The position numbers were made by a program, and so were the translations under genes. Positions 5,060 through 64,000 of a stretch of DNA of 64,000 nt are shown here, one piece after another (position 1 is the first letter of the stretch; each line of letters opens with the position of its first letter). A model generated the notes under the pieces. It was not told the DNA's origin, searched no databases, and worked only from the letters and a program-made list of their open reading frames with translations. Source of the DNA: Farysia itapuensis (Eukaryota; Basidiomycota; Ustilaginomycetes; Ustilaginales; Ustilaginaceae); the NCBI GenBank assembly GCA_023212645.1, contig JALBYC010000008.1, forward strand, positions 422,526-486,525, read 5' to 3'.

Positions 5060-6301
5060 ATGCCACCTAAGAAGACAAGCACGCAAAGTGGCGACAAGCC
5101 CAAAGCGGCATCTAGTGAGAAGGTAGCCAAGTCCAGCAAGGCAAATGCTCAGACCCCTGTAGTCAAGAAAGCGGCAAAAGCCAGCACAGTGGAAGAAACA
5201 GAGAAGCCGAAATCGTCGCGGTCCAAGACGGCGTTGAAGGATGCCACGGCTACCGCAGATGCTGCCTCAGCTGCACCCAGCAACGACACACCAGAAGGTC
5301 CGGTGAGGAAAGGTCGGCGATCGCGCAACCCAGACGTGCAGAAGGAGGCACTCGCCAAAGACGCCGAGTCGACGTCCAACGGCAAGAAGCGTGCTGCTGA
5401 GCCGAAAGCAGCAGCTACATCTGAGACAGGGTCCAAGAAATCACAGGCCAACGCTGAGAAGGAGACTACAGCTGCTCCCAAGGCCAAGAAAGCAAAGGCG
5501 ACTCATGACGTTGCTCCTAAAGCTGCGTCCAGTCAGGTTCTCAACGAGCGCGAAGTTATCGCCTCACTGTCAGATGTGTCAGACGATGAAGAAGACGAGG
5601 AAGAGGACGAGGGAAACTCGAGCGACGAAGACGAAGAAGACGACAAACTAGCGCAACGCTCCAGCATGGCATCCATCAAGCTGCCCAACTCTAAAGACGA
5701 TGCCGTCGTCAAGCAGCGTCTCGACAAGCTGAAAAAGTCCAAAAAGAACTCCAAGAACGCATCCACGCCGGGCACATTGTATGTTGGTCGCCTCCCCAAA
5801 GGCTTCTTTGAGGATCAAATGAAGGGATATTTCACCCAATTTGGCGACGTCACCCGTCTTCGAGTCAGTCGAAACAAAAAGACAGGTGCATCCAAGCACT
5901 ACGCCTTTGTTGAATTCGCCGACAAAGACGTAGCCAGCATTGTGCAGGAGACGATGAACAACTACCTGATTGATGGAGCCTTGTTACAGGTGCGATTGGT
6001 ACCGAAAGACAAGATTCACCCCGAAATGTGGATTGGTGCCAACCGAAAGTACCGGCCGATCCCTGGCGCCCGAATGGAGCGCCTCAAGCGGGACAGAAGC
6101 AAAACGGAAGACGAACAAGAAGTGACCATTCAGCGCGCTTTGAGCAGACAGGAGAAACGTAAGGCAAAGCTTGCCGATGCTGGCATTGACTACGATTTCC
6201 CCGGTTACACACGCGATGCTATTTCCGCCGACGCAGAAGCGGAAGCCGTCGCAAAGCCGGCCAAGAAGTCATCTGCAAAGAAGGCCAAGATCTCCGCATA
6301 A
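5060..6301 (+). CDS. NOP15: Nucleolar RRM protein, Nop15/NIFK-like (60S ribosome biogenesis)
   Basis: Putative nucleolar assembly factor of the large ribosomal subunit. The start is the ATG at 5060 (MPPKKTSTQSGDK); 413 residues. The first 230 residues are disordered, Lys/Ala-rich, with an acidic run (DEEDEEEDEGNSSDEDEEDD) around residues 185-205. A single RRM spans about residues 240-325, with RNP2 LYVGRLPKGF and RNP1 KHYAFVEFAD. The segment after the RRM, KDKIHPEMWIGANRKYRPIP, followed by basic residues, is the part that resembles the Nop15/NIFK family and distinguishes it from generic RRM proteins. The C-terminus is again Lys/Ala-rich and looks like a nuclear/nucleolar targeting tail. A T-rich tract precedes the gene at about 4960-4980. 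Alternative: another single-RRM nucleolar protein. Confidence 0.85.
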   Translation: MPPKKTSTQSGDKPKAASSEKVAKSSKANAQTPVVKKAAKASTVEETEKPKSSRSKTALKDATATADAASAAPSNDTPEGPVRKGRRSRNPDVQKEALAKDAESTSNGKKRAAEPKAAATSETGSKKSQANAEKETTAAPKAKKAKATHDVAPKAASSQVLNEREVIASLSDVSDDEEDEEEDEGNSSDEDEEDDKLAQRSSMASIKLPNSKDDAVVKQRLDKLKKSKKNSKNASTPGTLYVGRLPKGFFEDQMKGYFTQFGDVTRLRVSRNKKTGASKHYAFVEFADKDVASIVQETMNNYLIDGALLQVRLVPKDKIHPEMWIGANRKYRPIPGARMERLKRDRSKTEDEQEVTIQRALSRQEKRKAKLADAGIDYDFPGYTRDAISADAEAEAVAKPAKKSSAKKAKISA

Positions 6302-52471: not shown

Positions 52472-53446
52472 CTATGGGGATGTACGTGCCTGTGCTGCTT
52501 CTTGAACAGTGGGTAGTACTAGATCGTAGGGACAATGCCAGAACGGCTCTTGGCTACGTGCAAAGCCCAACGCCTTTGCACGGGCAGGATCTTGAACTTG
52601 CTTCAGGTCCAACACCAAGGATGTCTTGACGCCAAAGACGGCATCGGAGCGAAGAAAGTCGTCTCCTTCGAAGTAAAGTGCCGTGGTCAAGGAAGCGTAG
52701 CCTGGAGCGGTAACCTGGAGGTGCAAGTGAGCTGGACGAAAGACGTGGCGACCAAGACGTTGAAGCAGCTTTCCGACAGGACCATCGCTGGGAATTGGAT
52801 AAGGCACGGGGCGGACGGCACGAAAGTTGTAGACGCCAGCAGGACCGCTACGAATTCGACCACGACAATCTGCCTTTGTACGACCGTCGTACTGAACGTC
52901 ATAGAAGCCTTCACAATCGGTTTCCCAAGTCTCGATGAGTGCGCCTTCGATCGGTTGGCCGTTGATCCCTTTAACCGTTCCTTCGACGTACATGTATTCA
53001 CCCTTGCCTTCAGAGGCAATGCTCTCTCCAAGATTGATCTCCGTAGCATCAGAAGTTTGAAAGGGACCCAAGATGGTCGGTTCCGTGGCACCTTGCGGCA
53101 CCTTTTTGGCTTGGGAATCGACCAGGGCAGACAGGCCGAGGATATCAGATAAGAGAATGAACTCCTGTCGAACGGGGGAGCAAATTTGACCTACTTGAGT
53201 GAGAAAGAGTAGAGAAGACATCCATTCAGCCTCGGTCAGCTTGACCTCACGAGCAAAGTCGTGCAGGTGTTGTACCAGACTCGCCATGACCTCTTTGAGG
53301 CGAGCATCAGACGAGCGGGCATTGCATTGTTGGACAATGTCGGTGATGGTGTGCTCGTTGAGATCGATAGGCAAGGAGGGGATGTCCGCTTTGGTAGGCT
53401 GTTCTGGCTTGAAGGGTAGGCCTTGATCTTGCTCTTTGATAGCCAT
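52472..53446 (-). CDS. Intradiol ring-cleavage dioxygenase, hydroxyquinol 1,2-dioxygenase type
   Basis: Non-heme Fe(III) enzyme that opens the ring of hydroxyquinol (1,2,4-trihydroxybenzene) or catechol between the hydroxyl-bearing carbons. Single exon of 324 residues from the ATG complementary to 53444-53446. The N-terminal dimerisation helices (REVKLTEAEWMSSLLFLTQV; RQEFILLSDILGLSALVD) are the kind found in catechol/hydroxyquinol dioxygenases, not in protocatechuate 3,4-dioxygenase. Predicted iron ligands are Tyr182 (GFYDVQ), Tyr216 (VPYPIP), His240 and His242 (RPAHLHLQV). The loop GPFQTSDATEINLG is also family-like. Hydroxyquinol is preferred as substrate because maleylacetate reductase is adjacent; catechol remains possible. 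It is divergent from the Zn2Cys6 regulator. Confidence 0.9.
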   Translation of the reverse strand: MAIKEQDQGLPFKPEQPTKADIPSLPIDLNEHTITDIVQQCNARSSDARLKEVMASLVQHLHDFAREVKLTEAEWMSSLLFLTQVGQICSPVRQEFILLSDILGLSALVDSQAKKVPQGATEPTILGPFQTSDATEINLGESIASEGKGEYMYVEGTVKGINGQPIEGALIETWETDCEGFYDVQYDGRTKADCRGRIRSGPAGVYNFRAVRPVPYPIPSDGPVGKLLQRLGRHVFRPAHLHLQVTAPGYASLTTALYFEGDDFLRSDAVFGVKTSLVLDLKQVQDPARAKALGFARSQEPFWHCPYDLVLPTVQEAAQARTSP

Positions 53447-53844
53447 GTTGTCGCGTACTCTGTGTGTGGTATTAGCAAGGAAAGCGTGAGGAGCGGTCTA
53501 GATATGTCCAGGCACTGAGAGCTGCATCGGTCTTCCCCACATCTGTTCCATCAGCTCCGAGACGTACGGAAATGATTCCGATCCTTGTCAATAGATCTTC
53601 GCCGGATCTCCATCTGAGGCGAATGTTGCTCCTCGGCGATGAAGTTGACATGGAGAAGGCGTTGAACAGGTCCGAACTCAATTTTGAGCGAGCACCGCGT
53701 CTCGACCCGCGGCCGTGCGCCGAGCAACGGAGATGAAGCAGAGCCGCGCTCACTTTTGGCATTTTCCGATCTCTCCACTCCAGTCGCATACCCCACGTTA
53801 CGGGACACAAGCCGGTATCCACTCCTCGTTAAGGTTCCGAATCG
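53447..53844. promoter_or_regulatory. Divergent promoter between dioxygenase and Zn2Cys6 regulator, with five TCCGA motifs
   Basis: No gene. TCCGA occurs at 53556-53560, 53577-53581, 53671-53675, 53765-53769 and 53836-53840, all in one orientation. Chance would give about 0.8 in this length (both strands counted). CGG/CCG triplets are the usual contact of Zn2Cys6 proteins, so autoregulation or cluster control is a reasonable guess. Confidence 0.35.
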
Positions 53845-56087
53845 ATGACGGAGCCCAGGATGGCTGCCCCATCACCGACTGCCAGCCCTGACAAGGGCTC
53901 TGCAACCCCTGCGAAGAAGAAGAGAAAATCACCGGTATGTGCAGCGATGAAAAGTTGTATGACAAAGTTCAGGCTCACTGATCCATCCATGCATCCGTAT
54001 CCCAGCTCGTCTCCAAAGCCAAATCGTGTGCTGGATGTCGCAAAGCCAAGCTTCGCTGTAACATGATATGGCCTTGCGCCAATTGCGTCAGACGAGGGTT
54101 GGCACATGCATGTCCTGGATTTATACCGCAGGAACAAGATGTGATGTCCGATGACCATCTACCGCATGTTTCATTCGACACGGCACACGCGTTGGCTTCC
54201 CTAGCTGACGCCGCGACTGCTGAGTCTCGCCAAGTCGGCATAGCCCAGGTCGAGGGCCTTTCCCAGGACGTGACGACGCCGTCTCCGTTACAACGTCAAG
54301 CGGACACATTGCCACGCAGTGGGCCGAGCTCTTTTGGCGGATGGCCTCAGTACTATGGCCAATCGGCACACAGCAGCTACCTGGCAACTAATTTTTCGGA
54401 AACGCCACCACCATCAACGTCAGAAGATAGGACAATCGCGGCGAAACCAGGGCAAGCTCGCAGGGCCACTGAAGATGCTTGGGTCCAACTCGATACAGAC
54501 TACAAGTTCTTTCTGGATAATGTTCAAGATGGCCTGGATGAATCTGTCGTGACAGACTATGAGGCATCCATTGCCTGGATGTTCTGCCCGATCGAAGCTG
54601 CCGAACTCAGATTCTTGTTCACCGGCTTGGACGACGACTCGTTGGCACTGTGTCTCGTCGCCAAGGTCATCATGTTTGATTGGCAGAAGGCGTTGCATCA
54701 AGACCCGCCAGCGGGACAGGATCGCGTTCGAGACGTGGCCTTTCAGCAGTGCTGGAGAAAGTTGGACAAGGCTCAGTGGAGTCGATGCAACTCATTGACG
54801 ATCCAGCAGGCACTGTTCCTGCTCTGTGTCTTTCTGCTCAATTTTGAGGGCGGTCGGATGTCCGACAGGTTCTCGTCGATCTTTGGTATATGCGTTGCCA
54901 AGGCGATCGAATCGGGCCTCTACACCGATGCAAAGGTGGGCAAAGGCGACAATGAAGCTGTTCAGCGTCAACGACAGAGGCTATTTTGGGAGCTGTACTC
55001 ATTGGATGCTTTCCGATCGCTGGCCTACTGCAGACCATGCTTCTTTCAAGACAGCACAATCACAGCGGCCAAGCCAAGCATGTTGACCGACGATGATGCG
55101 TTCCACGCCATCAAGTACGAGAACGCACAAATCATCAATCGCTTCATGACGCATTACCTACATTCATCTCGCACTGACTTCGAAGAGACCATGGATCTCG
55201 ACCTTCAAATTCGCCAGCTGTTTGAGCGGATCCCATCCCAACTGCGCGTGGGCAGAGCCAATCGGCTTAGTAGTGGCCGACAACAGACCACTCGCCACAT
55301 CTTGCAAGGCTGCACAATTGCACTCAACATTCACCAAACTTTACTGACGCTCTACCGCCCCTGGTTCGTCTCCATCACCTTGGAAGAGGCTCAGGAAAAG
55401 GGCAAGCGACACTCGCCACAGTTCCAGCGCGCTAAGCTCTGTATTGGCGAATCAGCCAGCGCCATGATCGATCTATGCAGTCGTGCTTATGCCGTCGACC
55501 CGCAGACTACCATGCATTGGGCCTTCTTTCTCCATCACACCTTCAATGCTGGCGTTTGTCGCGCCATGCAGGCCATCTATGGCAACGTTAGCGATCCTCT
55601 TTACTACAGCGCTGTTGACGACGTCGACGAAGCCATGGCGCTGCTTGAAAAGACACAGGAACATGGCCGCGGTCGCGTGTGGCTACCCAAGGCTAACGTA
55701 TTGAGGAAACTGCGTCAGCGAATCGACAGGGTAGCCAATGCCACGGCTCGCACTAACGGAGGGGACCGGTCTCGTCGAGCCAGCTACTTTGGTCTGTTGG
55801 GAGCCAGCGTACCAGTAGCACCTAATGACGAATCAAGTAGCGCCGGTCGCCATCAGCTACAGCCTGCCACGGAGTCATCCTCAACAGCACTCCTAGGCGG
55901 TGAAGGTGTTGCAACTGCTACGCCCGACGATCTCAGCTCAGTGTCGGGATGGCTCGAGCTGCTCAACACTGATGCTTTCACACTTCCCATGGCCGATCTT
56001 TGGAGTGCTTCTGGTCTTCCATCGTTCGACCCACCTCCCAATGTCGCTCAGCCCTCCGACTCGACTTGGACCACGTCATTGAGCTAG
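53845..56087 (+). CDS. Zn2Cys6 transcription factor, probable cluster regulator
   Basis: Nuclear fungal binuclear-zinc regulator. Two exons, 53845-53934 and 54006-56087, joined across a 71-nt intron, give 723 residues. The splice is needed to reach the DNA-binding domain, at about residues 38-65: CAGCRKAKLRCNMIWPCANC, then VRRGLAHAC, i.e. Cys-X2-Cys-X6-Cys-X5-Cys-X2-Cys-X8-Cys with all six cysteines. Basic residues (KKKRKS) precede it. The middle homology region of fungal-specific factors is seen at about residues 200-500 (FLLCVFLLNFEGGRMSDRFS; GICVAKAIESGLYTDAKVG; RQRLFWELYSLDAFRSLAYC). It does not look like the AROM-derived quinate activator QutA/QA-1F. Control of the surrounding genes is inferred from its central position. 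Confidence 0.88.
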
Positions 56088-56148: not shown

Positions 56149-57162
56149 CTATAGTGACAATGGTTCCGGGATGCCGTTCACGTTGAGTTCGTCCCGGGTT
56201 GCGGCCTGCTTCCATAGCTCGTCCTGAGCCGTCTGTGCCTGCTGGTCAGTCAGATCGACGCCACTAAAGAGGCGCCACACTGTCTGGACTTGCTCGGCAA
56301 TGACATGAATGCCTTCAATCACACGCCATCCGTGTTTCTGCGCCAAGCTGAAGGTGCGAGTAATCCGAGGCTTGTAGGCCATTTCTAGCAAGGTGCCGTG
56401 AGTTTGCTTCAACACGAGGTCCAGTACGGCGCTGGCACGTTTTTCTGCTTCTGACTTTGGCTCCAGATCTGGAACGCAGCTGACGGCTAGCAACTTGGCT
56501 GGCTGATTCGGGCCAGATGTTTGAGCGAGGATGGTCTCGGCCTGATCGAGGGTCTGGAGGTGTGTGATGGTAGGCATGTCCATCGAAACAGCACCGAAAC
56601 CTTTTTGCACGTCTTTGACTAAGCCTTTCACCTCGTCGTCGTCACGATTGATGATGAAGATGGTACGACAGCCCAACTTAGCCAATGCGTAGGCAGCTGC
56701 TCGACTGGCCCCACCTGCTCCAATGATCAAACCGTTGCGCCCGTACCCTGCCTGAGGTGAGGCCTGCACATCTTGTAGCATCAGGTCTTTCTGCAGCGGT
56801 CGCAAGATGCCGATCCAGTCAGTGTTGGCACCCATCAGCTTACCGTCCCGCTGATAAACGTTGTTGATAGCGCCAATTGCCCGAGCAGCTGCATCGACCT
56901 CATCGACCGCATCCAATAGTTGGATCTTGAAGGGCATTGTCGGAACGCATCCTCTGAAATCCGGCCGACGAATGTGTCGCAGCGCTTCTTCCTTGGTCTG
57001 TACGTCGAGATTGCTGAAATGCCATTGGGAACCAAGCTGTTGTGCGACGCTGTTGTGAATTACGGGAGCCATGGCATGGCTGACACCTGTACCAACCAAG
57101 TAAAGCTGGCCAGGATCTTGCAGAGAGGGAGGTGCGCCTTCTTGTGCTGCAACTAAGCCCAT
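56149..57162 (-). CDS. Shikimate/quinate dehydrogenase-like protein lacking the SxS substrate serines
   Basis: Single exon. The ATG complementary to 57160-57162 (MGLVAAQEGAPPS) gives 337 residues and starts just before the domain; a TATA-like element sits 60-70 bases before it. An upstream in-frame ATG at 57324 would add 54 residues of unlike composition. The protein has the catalytic-type Lys in TMPFK, the Asp in GANTDWIGI and a nucleotide-binding GAGGASRAAAYALAKLG. Where true shikimate dehydrogenases have HSxSP, this has HAMAPVIHN, so both carboxylate-binding serines are replaced by Ala. It resembles the N-terminal half of the fusion protein encoded at 58187-60319 (HNxVAQQLG, TMPFK), suggesting duplication. 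Activity on quinate or shikimate is uncertain; another ring acid or alcohol may be the substrate. Confidence 0.75.
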   Translation of the reverse strand: MGLVAAQEGAPPSLQDPGQLYLVGTGVSHAMAPVIHNSVAQQLGSQWHFSNLDVQTKEEALRHIRRPDFRGCVPTMPFKIQLLDAVDEVDAAARAIGAINNVYQRDGKLMGANTDWIGILRPLQKDLMLQDVQASPQAGYGRNGLIIGAGGASRAAAYALAKLGCRTIFIINRDDDEVKGLVKDVQKGFGAVSMDMPTITHLQTLDQAETILAQTSGPNQPAKLLAVSCVPDLEPKSEAEKRASAVLDLVLKQTHGTLLEMAYKPRITRTFSLAQKHGWRVIEGIHVIAEQVQTVWRLFSGVDLTDQQAQTAQDELWKQAATRDELNVNGIPEPLSL

Positions 57163-57553
57163 TATGGCGACGACGTCTGGTGTGAACGGATGGTGTGAAG
57201 GTTGCGAGAGGGAGATCTGATGCTTTTTATCGCGCCGGACAAGGCCAGGCAGGCGTATAGCTCGCGGCTCAATCGGACTTGTGGCTTGGGCAAGTGTCAA
57301 ATTACACTGCGTACTCCGAAGCATTCTAGCATTATTTGGCCCTTGTCGCCTACAAACCCTGCATCGGACTTAAACAGCTGCGTGCCGAGCACACCGCCAA
57401 TAGCTCTTTTCACTCTGCCCACCACGCTGCATTTCGGAATAGGGACGAGTCTTCCAGCTCTGCTCCACCCCTGGCCAAGCAGAGCTCGGTCCGCGATGAG
57501 CGCCTTCATCGTCAGTCTGAAATGCTTTCCTCCATCTCTTCTACGCTGTCAAG
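57163..57553. promoter_or_regulatory. Divergent promoter between dehydrogenase-like gene and dehydroquinase gene
   Basis: No gene. TCGGA/TCCGA occurs at 57273-57277, 57315-57319, 57364-57368 and 57434-57438; two of these share the longer form ATCGGACTT. On the minus strand a TATA-like GATAAAAAG lies at 57223-57231, 61-69 bases before the start at 57162. Confidence 0.35.
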
Positions 57554-58101
57554 ATGCTGTCCTCTCCCAATACTGATCATCCTACCGTACTGGTACGTCT
57601 AGCCGTTGCTGTGGCAAAGTGATGGTACTACGAGAAAGAAGCTGACAACTCGTTGTTGCGAATGGCTAGCTGATCAATGGTCCCAACCTCAACTTGCTGG
57701 GCACCCGCGAACCGGACAAGTATGGTAGCCAGACGCTGTCCGATGTGGTTGCGCAAAGCGAAAGCGTGTGTACCGAGCTAGGTCTTTGCCTCGAAACCTT
57801 TCAGTCCAATCACGAAGGACATATCGTTGATCGTATCCACAGCGTGCAGGGCCGAGCTCACTCGACCGTGTTGATCATGAACCCAGGTGCTTTCACTCAC
57901 ACATCAGTCGCCATCAGGGACGCCATTAATGGCGTGCAAGTGCCCGTGATTGAAATTCACATTACAAACGTACACAAACGAGAACCGTTTCGTCATCACT
58001 CGTACATTTCCGACATTGCCGTTGGCGTGGTCGCTGGATTTGGTACTTATGGTTACGAAGCGGCCATTCGTCTTGCTTCTCAACTGCTCAAGCCAAAGTG
58101 A
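57554..58101 (+). CDS. Type II 3-dehydroquinate dehydratase (catabolic, qa-2/QutE-like)
   Basis: Converts 3-dehydroquinate to 3-dehydroshikimate. Two exons, 57554-57592 and 57670-58101, with a 77-nt intron, give 156 residues. The first exon encodes only 13 residues ([13 protein letters not shown]), and the splice continues into the family signature [20 protein letters not shown], containing the catalytic Tyr (residue 31). Other marks are [15 protein letters not shown] and [20 protein letters not shown] with the catalytic-type His and Arg. The length is normal for a type II enzyme. In fungi the biosynthetic activity sits in the pentafunctional AROM protein, so a free type II enzyme points to quinate catabolism. 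It ends 85 bases from the convergent fusion gene. Confidence 0.94.
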
Positions 58102-58186: not shown

Positions 58187-60319
58187 CTATGCGTCACTAG
58201 AAAGCATGTCCTGGCAGCGTTTCCAGCCCAGCTGAGCACGTTGAGCTTGACGGAGTGGCATAGCATCGTCAGCCTGCTTGAGCTCCGCGTTCATTATCTC
58301 GGCACTGACAGTTCCGTCAAAGCCAATGTCCTCGAAGATGACGCGTAGCAAGGGCAGCAAAGGGAGGTATCCTTCGCAGGCAAAATTGCGACAGGATCTG
58401 TTCCATGCCATCTTGCTGTTTGCATGCATGCTAGGATCGAACAAGGAATGGTCGAGGCTCAAGGGTGGGGTCATACGTTGAGCATCACCCACTTGAATGT
58501 AAAAGATCTTTTGCCGATTGACCGTCTGCTTGGCGAGATGACCAGCAAAGGTGGTACGCAAATCGTTGAGGCAGTTTTGCAGGCGAATCTCCGCATCGTA
58601 CCGCATGCCGTCGGTGCTTGCCGGATCGGCCCAGCATTCTCCCAGGATCTGGAAAGTGTCGAGTACGATACCAAAGTTGGGCAGGTCGACCGCCTCGACC
58701 TCCTTCCAGGCATCCTGCCATCGGCTGGTCCAGGCACCAAACGCCATAGCCTCATAAGCAAAGCGGATTCGTGGCTTGCCCTGCTCTTGCCGTCCAATGA
58801 GACCAGCCTGAGCTATAGCACGCAAGTCAGCAATCACGATCTCGGGATCGGCAACGGAGAGCTTCTTGAACATCATTGAAGGAACCTGGATCAGGTCCGT
58901 CCCTAGAATATCCGCCACCTCGAACCAGAGCGGCAAGACATCCTGTACTCGACGGTCGCGCTCCTGCCGATCACGCAGACCCGCGTAATTAAGCCATGGT
59001 TGTAGGCAAATGACGCTGAGTCGATGGCTGTCGCAGAGCTGGCGTATATATTGAGCACCGGCCAGAATCTCCGCATCGGTTGGCGTCTGCTCGATCGGCT
59101 TCTTGGCCAGTCGCAGCGAAGCTACACGTACGCATTCGTAGAAGATCTCGATGCCGTCAAAACGCTCGGCTGCCGCTGCTGCCACCTTTGCCTCGATTGT
59201 ATGGGCTTCCGCATAGCCCAAGGAAGCGGACATGACACCATGCGGCATGGCGCTGAGTCGTTCCGCCAAAGACCGTGTGGTAGCGCTTGAAGATTGCAAC
59301 GCCAAGCTTTGGGAAGCTAGTTGACGCATCTTGTCGCGCACCTGCCCCTGGGGGATTGAGTTAAATAAGGAGGATCCTGTACCTAACCAGATGCGCCACT
59401 GTTCGATCAATTGCGCCCCTAGAACCTCGATACCGGACAGCGTTTGCCAGCCATCGGCGTGTGCGATGCGCATGATGCGAGTGACCAGCGGCTTGAAACA
59501 CATGTCGATCAACATGCAGGGAGTCGTCTTTGCTTGATATCGATGTAGACGTCCGACCAACAAGAGGTCGAGCACCTCATGCATCCTATCCTCGGCTGCA
59601 GACAGCTCCTTTGTTGCGTCTGATGAATTTTGCTGCATCATGGCGACATCGGGAATGCAATTGACGGCCAACGAGGGGCTAATTCCCTGCGCGAGCAGCC
59701 GTTCTGCCTGGCTCGGAGAGGTGACGTGAAACACAGATTCTGCCAGAGGAACCTTGCTGCCTTGTGCTTGCACAGCGGCTTGCAAGTCGTCGATCATTGT
59801 CTGCACTGCGCTGGCTGAGCGGGCCACGACCAAGACCGTGGGACAGTGCAACATGAAGATCATCGCCCAGATGGCCGCCCGGGCAGCCCCACCTGAGCCG
59901 ATGACGAGACCGATCCGTTGCGGAATGCGCTGCAGTACGCTATCATTCTCTAGAAATACCTGAGCAATACCAGCTGCGTCCGTGTTGTGGCCGTGGTATT
60001 GAAGCACGCCATCTTGCTGTCCTTTGAGCACGCTGATGGTGTTGACCGCGCCGATAGCCTTGGCGTCCGCGTGGATGTGATCCAGGCGGGCCATGATGGT
60101 CGATTTGAACGGCATCGTGACCGCGCCAAATCCAAATTCAGGTCCTTGCATGTGTTGCCAGACCTGTTCCTCTTCTGCGTACTCGCCATGGTGAAAAGTC
60201 CACGGTAGGCCTAGCTGTTGTGCCACAAAGTTGTGCACGGCCGGTCCTACGCTGTGCTTGATTGGGAAACCAAAGGTTGCGCCCTGCAACGGCTCGCCGA
60301 TACGATCAATGAGCGACAT
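58187..60319 (-). CDS. Bifunctional quinate/shikimate dehydrogenase - 3-dehydroshikimate dehydratase fusion
   Basis: Single exon of 710 residues from the ATG complementary to 60317-60319. Residues 1-300 are a shikimate/quinate dehydrogenase: FGFPIKHSVGPAVHNFVAQQ, TMPFK, HNTDAAGI and the nucleotide site GSGGAARAAIWA. The first substrate Ser is kept (HS), the second is Gly. Residues from about 360 on form a xylose-isomerase-like TIM barrel of the QsuB/qa-4 dehydroshikimate dehydratase type. Putative metal ligands are Glu523 (FAYEAMAF), Asp554 (VLDTFQ), Gln609 (FYIQVGDAQR) and Glu674 (SAEIMNAE); the 31-residue Glu-Asp spacing is what I expect for QsuB-type enzymes. One chain could take quinate or shikimate through its oxo-acid towards protocatechuate, with dehydroquinase acting between on the quinate route. 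Confidence 0.88.
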   Translation of the reverse strand: MSLIDRIGEPLQGATFGFPIKHSVGPAVHNFVAQQLGLPWTFHHGEYAEEEQVWQHMQGPEFGFGAVTMPFKSTIMARLDHIHADAKAIGAVNTISVLKGQQDGVLQYHGHNTDAAGIAQVFLENDSVLQRIPQRIGLVIGSGGAARAAIWAMIFMLHCPTVLVVARSASAVQTMIDDLQAAVQAQGSKVPLAESVFHVTSPSQAERLLAQGISPSLAVNCIPDVAMMQQNSSDATKELSAAEDRMHEVLDLLLVGRLHRYQAKTTPCMLIDMCFKPLVTRIMRIAHADGWQTLSGIEVLGAQLIEQWRIWLGTGSSLFNSIPQGQVRDKMRQLASQSLALQSSSATTRSLAERLSAMPHGVMSASLGYAEAHTIEAKVAAAAAERFDGIEIFYECVRVASLRLAKKPIEQTPTDAEILAGAQYIRQLCDSHRLSVICLQPWLNYAGLRDRQERDRRVQDVLPLWFEVADILGTDLIQVPSMMFKKLSVADPEIVIADLRAIAQAGLIGRQEQGKPRIRFAYEAMAFGAWTSRWQDAWKEVEAVDLPNFGIVLDTFQILGECWADPASTDGMRYDAEIRLQNCLNDLRTTFAGHLAKQTVNRQKIFYIQVGDAQRMTPPLSLDHSLFDPSMHANSKMAWNRSCRNFACEGYLPLLPLLRVIFEDIGFDGTVSAEIMNAELKQADDAMPLRQAQRAQLGWKRCQDMLSSDA

Positions 60320-60987
60320 GACTGGTATGTTTGACTATCTTCAGGGTATGAGCGAGAGCTGGCAGCAGACGTTTTGCAGGGACATATATGATCGAAGTCA
60401 GCCGAGCGGGAAAGGTGCAAGTCCAGAGCCGAGCTGGGCTTTCAGAGGTACAGCTCCGATTCATGTCCGGTCGCCTTTTGTGTCAGGTCCGATCTGATCT
60501 TCCACGATATCCAGTCGCGCATGCTCCGTACACATGTGCCCCTTGTCGTACAAAGACGTTCTGTTTGCGAAGAGACGGTCTGACTCGAAGATGCCAATCT
60601 ATCCCAACACTTATCCTTTCCGTCCCTTGCTTTCGCGTCAAATTGCCGAGAGCGAGATTACAGTTTTCCGATTTGCGCCGCCCTTGCTTGATTCTGTAAG
60701 TCAACTGGGCTCTGCTTCACAGACGATCTTCGGCCTAGACACCGGCTATCACAACTGCTCTGTCACAGCCAGTCGACCAATACAAGCGCACATGCTTAAG
60801 CTGACAATTGCCAAAGTCCAAGTCGATCTCGAGCTCTAAGAACATTGTCTATGCGCTGTGAGACCTGTGCTCTTGGTCCAAACCACACTCACTCACATTC
60901 ACGCCAGTAAGAGTATGATACAGAAGCTTGCGTGTCAACCACATTGTGATAGATCTTCGAGGGATATTGCTTAATGGCAGAGTTCGT
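60320..60987. other. Intergenic region upstream of fusion gene (668 bp)
   Basis: Holds the minus-strand promoter of the fusion gene (TATA-like ATATAT at 60384-60389, about 65 bases from the start) and the 3' end of the next gene. TCCGA occurs at 60455-60459, 60488-60492 and 60667-60671. A small plus-strand open frame (60591-60839, 82 codons) has no recognisable homology. Confidence 0.4.
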
Positions 60988-62310
60988 CTACACCTTGATA
61001 TCCATCATAGCTTTTGCCATGTTTCTCGCCTTCTCTTCCACTTCCGCACCTATTGGGCCTTCATCACCCGCTTTGACCGCATATGGAATCGGATCAAAAC
61101 TTGTCTTGCCCTCTGCGAAGGCCTTTGCTGTTGCAGCCCACATTCTTGCTTGTGCCAGACCCTGTTCTACCATGGCTTCTACGCCTCCAATCGCTGACCA
61201 ACCGAGAGATTCTGCCATCGTTAGTAGAGGAGTTTGCCGCGGCTTGTAGCACATGTCCAAGAAAGGCCGTTTTGGAGGCAGCGGCAGCGGAAGAAGCATC
61301 TCGCCGTTCGCCTCTCTGCGCAGGGAAGACGATGAGTGCGCAGAGGAAGTCCGTGGACCTGGAGTGGAGAAGAACTTTTCTGCAAGAGTGTAGACCATCT
61401 GTTCCGACTCGGTCTGAGGCGTAAACGCTGGTATGGCCCCAACTGCACATGCGATTGCACCGAGCTCTCCGCTGACTCGCTTCCTCTCTTCTACCTCGAA
61501 AGCTTCCACTGAGCGAAGCGGTCGAAGGTCAAGAGATGCACCAAAATGGTCAACGACCGCCTTCGTCTCTTCTGCATCTCGGTTCAAGAGGTAGATAGGC
61601 GACAAACCGAGCTGAGAGACAGCATAGACAGCAGACCTGCAGGTACCGCCTGAGCCGATGATGAACGCAGAGTAAGGTTTTCCGTCGTCGTTGTTGGGAA
61701 AGACGAATCTAGCTTTGTAAGAAGTTTGAGGATCCAGATATTTAGTGATCCTGTCTTCCTCGTTGCAATCCGCGATACCTCGAAGAAGAGCGTGAGCGAT
61801 ACCGAGATAGTCTGTGTTGGTACCAATCATCTTTCTAGGCTTGCCTGCTGGCTGCGGTGTAGGAATGATCGTGTTGACGGTCTGTGTTGCTTTTCCTGCA
61901 TCGCTGAGTTCGTCGATCACTCCTTGTGATCCTATTTGAGCAGTGACGGCAACTTTGAGCGGCATAGTGACCCCAGCGCCTGCAAAGAGAGGATCCTCGC
62001 GGACAAGTGATCGAAAATGATATGCGTCGACGGTCTCCGTGTCTTTGAGCGAATACGTTGGGTGAAATGACTGAGGTCCGGTTCCGGGGAAACTGATGGG
62101 TGCGATGGACTGCAGCATCACATTCTGAAAGGCAGGGCTGGCAGAGTGCGAGATGGGATAGCCAAATAGATAGTATCGTCTAGCAGAAGCTGCGATCTGG
62201 TCAGGTGTCGGATGAGGCGGTGGTGTGATCACTGCATTTCGCGAGGTAGGCATCGCTTTGTCAGCAGCAGAGATGTGTACGCCGTTCGCTGTCGTGGTCG
62301 CAATGGACAT
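60988..62310 (-). CDS. Quinate/shikimate dehydrogenase (qa-3/QutB-like)
   Basis: NAD(P)-dependent oxidation of quinate to dehydroquinate or shikimate to dehydroshikimate, first step of the pathway. Single exon of 440 residues from the ATG complementary to 62308-62310 (MSIATTTANGVHISAA). Of the three related proteins here this one keeps the most typical substrate motif, YLFGYPISHSASPAFQN. It also has TMPLK with the catalytic Lys, GTNTDYLGIAHALL with the Asp, and FIIGSGGTCRSAVYAVSQLG for the nucleotide. It has insertions relative to bacterial AroE (an extended N-terminus of about 45 residues and a Pro/Ser-rich loop near residue 330), as fungal enzymes of this family do. The C-terminal part has PFLDMCYKPRQTPLLTMAES. 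It is divergent from the permease gene. Confidence 0.88.
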   Translation of the reverse strand: MSIATTTANGVHISAADKAMPTSRNAVITPPPHPTPDQIAASARRYYLFGYPISHSASPAFQNVMLQSIAPISFPGTGPQSFHPTYSLKDTETVDAYHFRSLVREDPLFAGAGVTMPLKVAVTAQIGSQGVIDELSDAGKATQTVNTIIPTPQPAGKPRKMIGTNTDYLGIAHALLRGIADCNEEDRITKYLDPQTSYKARFVFPNNDDGKPYSAFIIGSGGTCRSAVYAVSQLGLSPIYLLNRDAEETKAVVDHFGASLDLRPLRSVEAFEVEERKRVSGELGAIACAVGAIPAFTPQTESEQMVYTLAEKFFSTPGPRTSSAHSSSSLRREANGEMLLPLPLPPKRPFLDMCYKPRQTPLLTMAESLGWSAIGGVEAMVEQGLAQARMWAATAKAFAEGKTSFDPIPYAVKAGDEGPIGAEVEEKARNMAKAMMDIKV

Positions 62311-63426
62311 CTTTGTATGTGACCGCTTTGTGCGGGGTACACGCGTGAATGGACACGATGAGGGGGTATATGAGGAGGCATCACGGCCGAGAGGCACAGC
62401 ATTGATTGACAGGCAGCATCACTGGCGCCGACAGAGACCCCGAGTGCAGCACGGACAGTGCACGTTGCTGTCTGATCCCGAGCTGCATAGCAAAGGTACA
62501 AGCCCTCGCTGGTCTGCACCGCACGGCAAGTGACGCCGGTTACTGTGGAAAGAACAGAGGATGCGCTGTCCAAAGCCTCCGGACTTTAATCGGACATGGA
62601 GTTCGATTCGCGCACAAACACTGCGACGGAATATTGGAAAAGCCCGGCTCAAGAATCACATCCTGCTCAATGCTCACAAGTGCCCGTTTGCTTTGCCGTA
62701 AACACGCCAAGCATCCGGCAGAAACCAGCGTCTGCGCTCAGATGCCGCGAAAAGTATAGCCGAGCTCTTCGATCAATTGGCTTGCGTAGTCAAGGCATAG
62801 GCCCCGGAGTTGAAGCAGCCGAGAACATCCTGCAATTCGGCTCACTTGAAGGGCTTTTCCCCCTTTCTCTCGGTTCCACCACAGCTCGCCTTTCCCTTGA
62901 TGTCCGATGTCCTGGTCGGTCAAGACGAGAGCCACTCAATGACACGCAGTAGGGCGGTGTAAGCCGAGCTTACCATTTTCCACAGCCTGGGTTCCACACC
63001 AGTCTCGTGTCTTGCATTTGCGGGGCCCCCGCCTGTCGGCCTTCCGCAAAGCAAAGTCTCTGGTGCGCTACTGCAATGGTCAGCTGTTCTAGTCGATGTA
63101 GTGCCGTGTGGGTCGACTTGGTTCCTGCTTTTTCGCTTCACTCGCTGCTCGCATGGTTTTCGTATCTGGCATAGCATTCAGCAGCGTTGTTCAGTTCTGC
63201 GTTTCGCATTACTTATAGAGCAGGTCGCCATCGCCCTTTCCCCACACCCCACATTCCTCCCATCGCCCTTCCTCCGCCTTTCGCCACTTCTGCACGGAGA
63301 ACTACAAGACAAGGACCACGCAACCTCGACTTTCGCATTGACTGTGACCATTTCGTGGCATTCCACCGACACGCGAGTCTCAGAGTCGTCACACGTCAAG
63401 CGTGCCAAATCTCGCCACTTTTCATC
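62311..63426. promoter_or_regulatory. Divergent promoter (1.1 kb) between quinate dehydrogenase and permease
   Basis: No gene. TCGGA at 62590-62594 and TCCGA at 62903-62907. An almost perfect GC palindrome, GCGGGGCCCCCGC, lies at 63020-63032. A TATA-like CTTATAG is at about 63211-63217, more than 200 bases before the permease ATG; the rest is a CT-rich leader. Weak TATA-like CATATAC on the minus strand at about 62366-62372. Confidence 0.35.
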
Positions 63427-63952
63427 ATGGGTCTTTTAAGCAGGAACGAAGACAGGCCTACGCCAAAGGCCATCTACAACTGGCGCCTTTGGGCTCTGGC
63501 CTACCTCGCCTCATTTGCCTCAATCATGATCGGATACGACAGTGCTTTCGTTGGCGGCACTCTTGCGCTCCCCTCTTTCGTAAAGTCATTTGGCAAACTC
63601 AGCCCCAGCGTTTCTGGAAATCTTGTTTCCACTTACCAAGCCGGTGCTTTCTTTGGTGCCTTCTTCGGTCATCCTCTCGGTCACTTCTTGGGCCGTAAGA
63701 AGGGACTCGGCATCACTGCCTTCATCTTCGTCGTCGGTGCTGTCATTATGTCTATTGCTTCTCCCGAGACACATTTGACCCCCATCTACGTCGGTCGGGC
63801 TATCGCAGGTATTGCCATTGGAGCTGCTTCCAATCTGACGCCGATGTATATTTCCGAGATCGCTCCCGCGCCCGCACGTGGTCAAGTGATTGGCCTCTGG
63901 GAGATCGGCTGGCAGACGGGTGGAATTGTCGGTTTCTTCATCAACTACGGCG
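63427..63952 (+). pseudogene. Quinate permease-like MFS sugar porter, truncated by the telomere
   Basis: Start of a sugar-porter-family permease of the qa-y/QutD type. The ATG at 63427 opens a frame of 175 native codons. TM1 (LWALAYLASFASIMIGYDSA), TM2 (STYQAGAFFGAFFGHPLG), motif A FLGRKKGLG, TM3, TM4 with GRAIAGIAIGAASNLTPMYI and SEIAPAPARGQ, and the start of TM5 (WEIGWQTGGIVGFFINYG) are intact. TM5 is the segment that quinate permeases continue as INYGV. After codon 175 (GGC, 63949-63951) the sequence is telomere, so about two thirds of a normal permease (roughly 530-550 residues), including the whole second half, is missing. The frame is open through the repeats, adding Val then Gly-Leu pairs, with no stop codon. 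It cannot be a working transporter. Confidence 0.9.
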
Positions 63953-64000
63953 TAGGGTTAGGGTTAGGGTTAGGGTTAGGGTTAGGGTTAGGGTTAGGGT
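63953..64000 (+). repeat. Telomere, eight TTAGGG-type units
   Basis: 48 bases of perfect TAGGGT units (TTAGGG family, the repeat of most fungi), G-rich strand running 5' to 3' towards the window end, as at a right chromosome end. They begin directly after permease coding sequence; no subtelomeric repeat lies between. Confidence 0.95.

Follow-up and report, generated by a model that had tools for sequence, protein, structure and literature searches.

Chromosome ends that were lost and then healed by new telomere repeats are already documented in Plasmodium, Pyricularia, and Cryptococcus, and the chromosome end of the smut yeast Farysia itapuensis described here (C52R, on contig C52) is very probably a new example of that kind, which overturns no accepted idea. 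The comparisons that follow draw on portions of the cited reports. In Plasmodium falciparum 3D7, healing is described at 5 of 28 chromosome ends, four of them within var genes (PMC5550746), and the repeats are fused straight into a truncated coding region, as they are at C52R. The P. falciparum genes encode variant antigens, however, and the events were confirmed by long reads and induced breaks (PMC5550746), whereas ours is a catabolic permease seen in contigs alone. In Pyricularia/Magnaporthe oryzae, seeds of 1–4 nt were reported for 19 of 24 new telomeres at rDNA ends, and a single T seeded one MoTeR2 truncation (PMC7367193); the authors prefer erosion to internal breaks as the source of new ends (PMC8381367). 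Poorly conserved telomere junctions and short seeds are common to that system and ours (PMC7367193; PMC8381367). The Pyricularia work, however, rests on many strains and on sequencing reads, while we have a single assembly, and at C52R the permease abuts the repeats, with no intervening reverse-transcriptase element of the MoTeR type.

Two further basidiomycetes offer partial parallels. In Cryptococcus progeny, an event ~17 kb from the tip of a chromosome deleted four genes, one of them for an MFS transporter, and the terminal loss was healed by repeats, as we propose for C52R; those progeny came from crosses with mismatch-repair mutants, however, and the portion of the report available does not place the junction inside the transporter (PMC7846113). 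Sporisorium scitamineum is, like F. itapuensis, a smut, with assembled telomere arrays of 32–140 bp, carbon-catabolism genes near chromosome ends and three quinate permease genes; it differs in having 35 helicase genes at its 22 ends, and the corresponding portion of its genome paper mentions no telomere-cut permease (PMC4466345). Among the matches listed in our literature searches on F. itapuensis and on telomere-cut fungal genes, mostly outside subscription journals, nothing concerned the C52R locus.

The assembly of F. itapuensis CBS 10428 was made with SPAdes 3.13.1 from 150-bp Illumina pairs and is reported, in the portion of the paper available, to comprise 13.8 Mb in 71 scaffolds with 14 gaps, an N50 of 473,075 bases, a GC content of 54.4% and a BUSCO score of 98.2% (PMC10262431). 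Our searches covered 53 contigs totaling 13.70 Mb, very probably 53 of these 71 scaffolds. A PalA/RIM20 protein encoded in the window had its best match in a metagenomic sequence (88%) and its best named match in Testicularia cyperi (69%), with other smuts next among the 120 of 1097 matches listed. As a check of gene content, we counted 17 proteasome hits, which were grouped as 14 loci, and 10 Cpn60 hits, nine of which were taken as CCT/HSP60. The expected set is 14 proteasome loci and nine CCT/HSP60 genes, and the gene space of the 53 contigs looks complete. The window, meaning the whole stretch of DNA analyzed, comprises 64,000 nucleotides (C52:422526-486525); C52 is 486,525 bases long, and the end of the window is therefore the end of the contig.

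The outermost gene of the window is a truncated quinate permease on the forward strand (63427..63953), identified from a Pfam profile and from an ungapped alignment to an intact paralogue on contig C28. Its ATG at position 63427 opens a 176-codon frame that reaches the telomere array, so the intact start claimed for this gene in the original prediction is borne out: the cut falls after 175 whole codons and the second base of codon 176. The frame meets no stop before the contig ends and reads Val-(Gly-Leu)n through the repeats. In Pfam, the stump corresponds to positions 2–161 of the 452 in the PF00083 profile (Sugar_tr; E 7.7e-39), so that roughly two thirds of this domain are absent. Smut proteins annotated as quinate permeases are 72–82% identical to it across the retained part, and it clusters with them. 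The four membrane segments and part of a fifth that had been predicted find support in homology. Of the transporters with a solved structure, GlcP and XylE are nearest in sequence; stump residues 25–175 align with GlcP 9–153 and residues 21–174 with XylE 10–183, a span which we take to be TM1–TM5. A Kyte-Doolittle scan at a threshold of 1.4, on the other hand, called two segments in the stump, and it undercalled the intact C28 paralogue as well. At 176 of ~550 residues the stump falls short of a full-length, 12-segment transporter; with ~5 of 12 membrane segments, it cannot be a working one.

The telomere array (63953..64000, forward strand, TTAGGG-type) runs up to the contig end as 8.0 perfect units, and Tandem Repeats Finder (TRF) gives a period of 6, 8.0 copies and 100% matches, in line with the perfect TTAGGG units originally read from position 63953 onward. 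The 14-base repeat pattern TTAGGGTTAGGGTT had 69 exact matches in 13.70 Mb, all 69 at 12 contig ends, compared with two matches in the same 13.70 Mb for the reversed pattern used as a control, and we therefore dismiss a chance match to the repeat. Interior arrays, for which exact matches alone were considered, were absent from the 13.70 Mb. At C52R, the repeats directly abut non-telomeric, single-copy sequence, with the gene/repeat boundary at 63952/63953. The C28 paralogue reads GGCGT and then TATCC at this point, and C52 reads GGCGT and then AGGGTT; in a longer stretch beyond GGCGT, C28 reads TATCCAG and C52 reads AGGGTTAGGG. The T at 63953, the second position of codon 176, fits both the gene and the telomere, which makes one shared base as measured against the C28 paralogue rather than the lost allele, and agrees with the expectation of at most a base or two. 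The 48 bp of this array should not be taken as the true telomere length: the arrays at 11 of the 12 telomeric ends measure 45–57 bp, and an assembler limit is the likelier cause.

An intact paralogue in the same genome serves as a reference for both the lost part and the junction. The C28 protein has 548 amino acids and is 80% identical to the stump over 176 residues without gaps; in all, we aligned 13 homologues, of which 10 are full length (542–556 aa) and three are short (283, 140, and 110 aa). When the 372 residues distal to the cut in this paralogue were searched against the 53 contigs, 27 matches were obtained, of which C28 itself was 100% identical and the next 35%. The intact permease that was to be sought in the same assembly is the C28 paralogue, and no other close copy of the distal 372 residues occurs among the 53 contigs; the missing part of the gene may lie on one of the other ~18 of the 71 published scaffolds. 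The last 2951 bp of C52 likewise had three matches, one of them the query and the others two segments of C28 (67% and 72%), and we conclude that this end was not recently copied from elsewhere in the 53 contigs.

Terminal deletion followed by de novo telomere addition, as had been suggested from the original reading, is very probably the explanation, judged against the C28 paralogue in the contigs of a single assembly. The right tip of the chromosome would have been lost, by breakage or erosion, with the deletion extending inward into the permease gene, on the outer margin of its cluster; the new end, ...GGCG(T), would then have been capped by telomerase, the terminal T probably serving as a one-base seed. 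This reading accommodates the absence of the remainder of the gene from the 53 contigs, the single-copy nature of the end, the one-base T and the presence of TERT, whose RNA-binding domain we found in a 1394-codon frame (E 1.2e-40). Telomerase is thus the presumed capping agent at 63953, and C52R would be the end carried by most of the sequenced cells.

It is conceivable that telomeric reads were joined in the library or by the assembler to an interior contig end that happened to lie inside the permease. The assembly is a short-read SPAdes product, one locus elsewhere in it was probably misassembled according to its own authors (PMC10262431, in the portion available), and the narrow 45–57 bp range of the arrays hints at the assembler rather than at biology. 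However, a graph assembler requires reads that span such a junction, and an intact path, if common, should have forked the graph; the distal half of the gene is missing from the 53 contigs, and exact repeat arrays never occur in the interior. We therefore regard such an artefact as highly improbable. Recombination, in which a broken end captured the telomere of another chromosome without telomerase acting at 63953, or in which the end of the cluster was copied onto a failing telomere by break-induced replication, is in our estimation the least probable of the alternatives. Internal sequences are indeed captured at failed ends in Pyricularia (PMC8381367, again in part), but at C52R the gene passes into the repeats with no intervening subtelomeric sequence of another end, and a second close copy of the end is absent from the 53 contigs.

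A different question is that of age and frequency, where an alternative overlaps with tip loss and telomere addition instead of replacing it: the truncation may be real and yet have arisen in the laboratory stock, or be confined to part of the culture, in which case it would not characterize the species in nature. In both Pyricularia and P. falciparum, fresh truncations often arise in culture, as described in portions of PMC7367193 and PMC5550746, but intact chromosomes, if common, should have yielded an assembled distal half, which was not found in the 53 contigs, and we consider an origin in the laboratory stock or in part of the culture unlikely.

Tip loss followed by telomere addition can also be set against the other ends of the genome. 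Repeats are present at 12 ends on 11 contigs (both ends of C1, and one each of C8, C9, C10, C13, C16, C26, C35, C45, C50, and C52), and the junctions differ at all 12. The 500 nt adjoining the 12 arrays showed no mutual similarity, and the phase in which the repeats start, read by eye at the 12 ends, showed no clear preference. C52R is accordingly not an exceptional end, as each of the other 11 has a junction of its own. When 10 kb was compared at each end, C1L, C13L, C16L, C35L, and C50R were found to have an element in common (~75–89% identity in the longer pieces), the outer edge of which lies 0.2–2.8 kb from the repeats, and C10L had short matches to it. Those of its frames that we tested had no Pfam match. 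C52R, C1R, C8L, C9L, C26L, and C45R matched no other end over the same 10 kb, so that the shared element can be rejected for C52R.

Domain evidence for a gene or element cut by the repeats was obtained at 4 of the 12 ends. Besides the permease at C52R (PF00083), these are C13L, where an OrsD domain halts at profile position 89 of 114, and C9L and C16L, where integrase frames (51–1025 and 51–1478, respectively) begin at the repeats and read inward, with the upstream part of a putative Gypsy-type pol absent. Frames of 236–594 codons are open to the repeats at C1L, C10L, C26L, and C50R, which by itself does not prove a loss, and nothing comparable was seen at C1R, C8L, C35L, and C45R, where the open runs are 37–117 codons. 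The OrsD-domain (PF12013) frames at C10L, C13L, and C50R run directly into the repeats at differing points, and several of the eight OrsD matches in the assembly are close to contig ends. A 1324-codon OrsD frame on C15, considered as a possible complete version of the cut frames, was abandoned, as C10L alone matched it (26–32%). The arrays at C13L and C16L each contain one TTAAGGG variant unit, toward the chromosome side.

An open frame at a telomere is not improbable in itself. At 7 of the 12 ends the junction is reached by an open frame of at least 200 codons, compared with 56% of 1000 random cuts, which were placed in positions 6000–62000 of our one 64-kb window, and the lengths of the open runs did not differ between the 12 junctions and the random cuts (Mann-Whitney, p 0.34). 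An open frame alone is therefore no proof of truncation, and the case for C52R rests on the loss indicated by homology. By the same comparison, the telomeres are placed where arbitrary breaks in gene-dense DNA would fall.

The permease is the outermost gene of a quinate/shikimate cluster as it stands on C52. Next inward is a gene similar to shikimate/quinate dehydrogenases on the reverse strand (60988..62418; PF08501, E 1e-07), followed by a 715-codon reverse-strand frame (58187..60334) that joins a shikimate-dehydrogenase N domain (PF08501) to an AP_endonuc_2 barrel (PF01261) resembling dehydroshikimate dehydratases. This frame may encode a bifunctional enzyme; the barrel is a separate frame on C28. 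Further in are a type II 3-dehydroquinase on the forward strand (57670..58098; PF01220, E 1.1e-55), a second shikimate/quinate dehydrogenase-like gene on the reverse strand (56149..57369; PF08501, PF01488), a Zn2Cys6 regulator on the forward strand (53982..56087; PF00172, PF04082), and an intradiol, catechol-type dioxygenase on the reverse strand (52472..53497; PF00775, PF04444). A second, diverged block, in the order barrel, dehydrogenase, intact permease, lies within C28:14000-23999. Its dehydrogenase is 67% identical over 404 aa to that at 60988..62418, and the barrels are 29% identical.

This second block bears on two of the consequences foreseen in the original prediction. As the second copy of the cluster contains an intact paralogue, it is doubtful that quinate uptake was strongly affected, and the predicted C28 permease probably buffers the loss. 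The notion that further cluster genes lay beyond the cut is unsupported, as the frames past the C28 permease within that 10-kb stretch of C28, judged by inspection of their translations, do not look pathway-like.

Comparison of the stump with C28 over 175 codons (Nei-Gojobori) gave a dN of 0.16 and a dS of 1.84, from which we conclude that the permease was under purifying selection for most of its history. Synonymous sites are near saturation, and a recent duplication of the cluster can be rejected. When 14 sequences were placed in an unrooted tree over the 176 retained columns, the stump paired with the metagenomic fragment P0097 (110 aa) with an ultrafast bootstrap of 99, the other nodes having values of 31–97. 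Residues 7, 154, 158, and 164 are private to the stump, and those remaining smut-group sequences that have a residue at these positions agree with one another. All four lie outside the part covered by P0097, and they may therefore be either a property of the P0097 clade or a sign of early decay.

C52R is a natural chromosome end inside a gene, resolved to the base. Together with 12 differing junctions and their random-like placement, it makes this small-genome smut yeast convenient for studying the turnover of chromosome ends and its effect on end-proximal catabolic clusters. The cut has also left the start and promoter of the permease ~0.5 kb from the telomere and reading outward. The divergent intergenic region of 1,008 bp delimited by the flanking genes (62419..63426), within which the permease promoter should lie, is now ~0.5–1.5 kb away from the repeats. 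A qa-1F-like palindrome was considered as a promoter element and rejected, being absent from the permease promoter of both the C52 and the C28 copies. In Ustilago maydis, RNA running from subtelomere into repeats was detected and was strongly raised upon depletion of pot1, according to the portion of the report available (PMC9119445), which shows that smuts can make transcripts of this type. We consider it decidedly unlikely, all the same, that C52R yields a quinate-inducible, TERRA-like telomeric RNA that would tie telomere transcription and stability to the carbon source. Frames reading outward and open to the repeats are also found at C1L, C10L, C13L, and C50R, that at C1L being a 594-codon frame (55–1836) without a Pfam match, and on that same reading the turnover of ends may repeatedly create gene-driven telomere transcripts.
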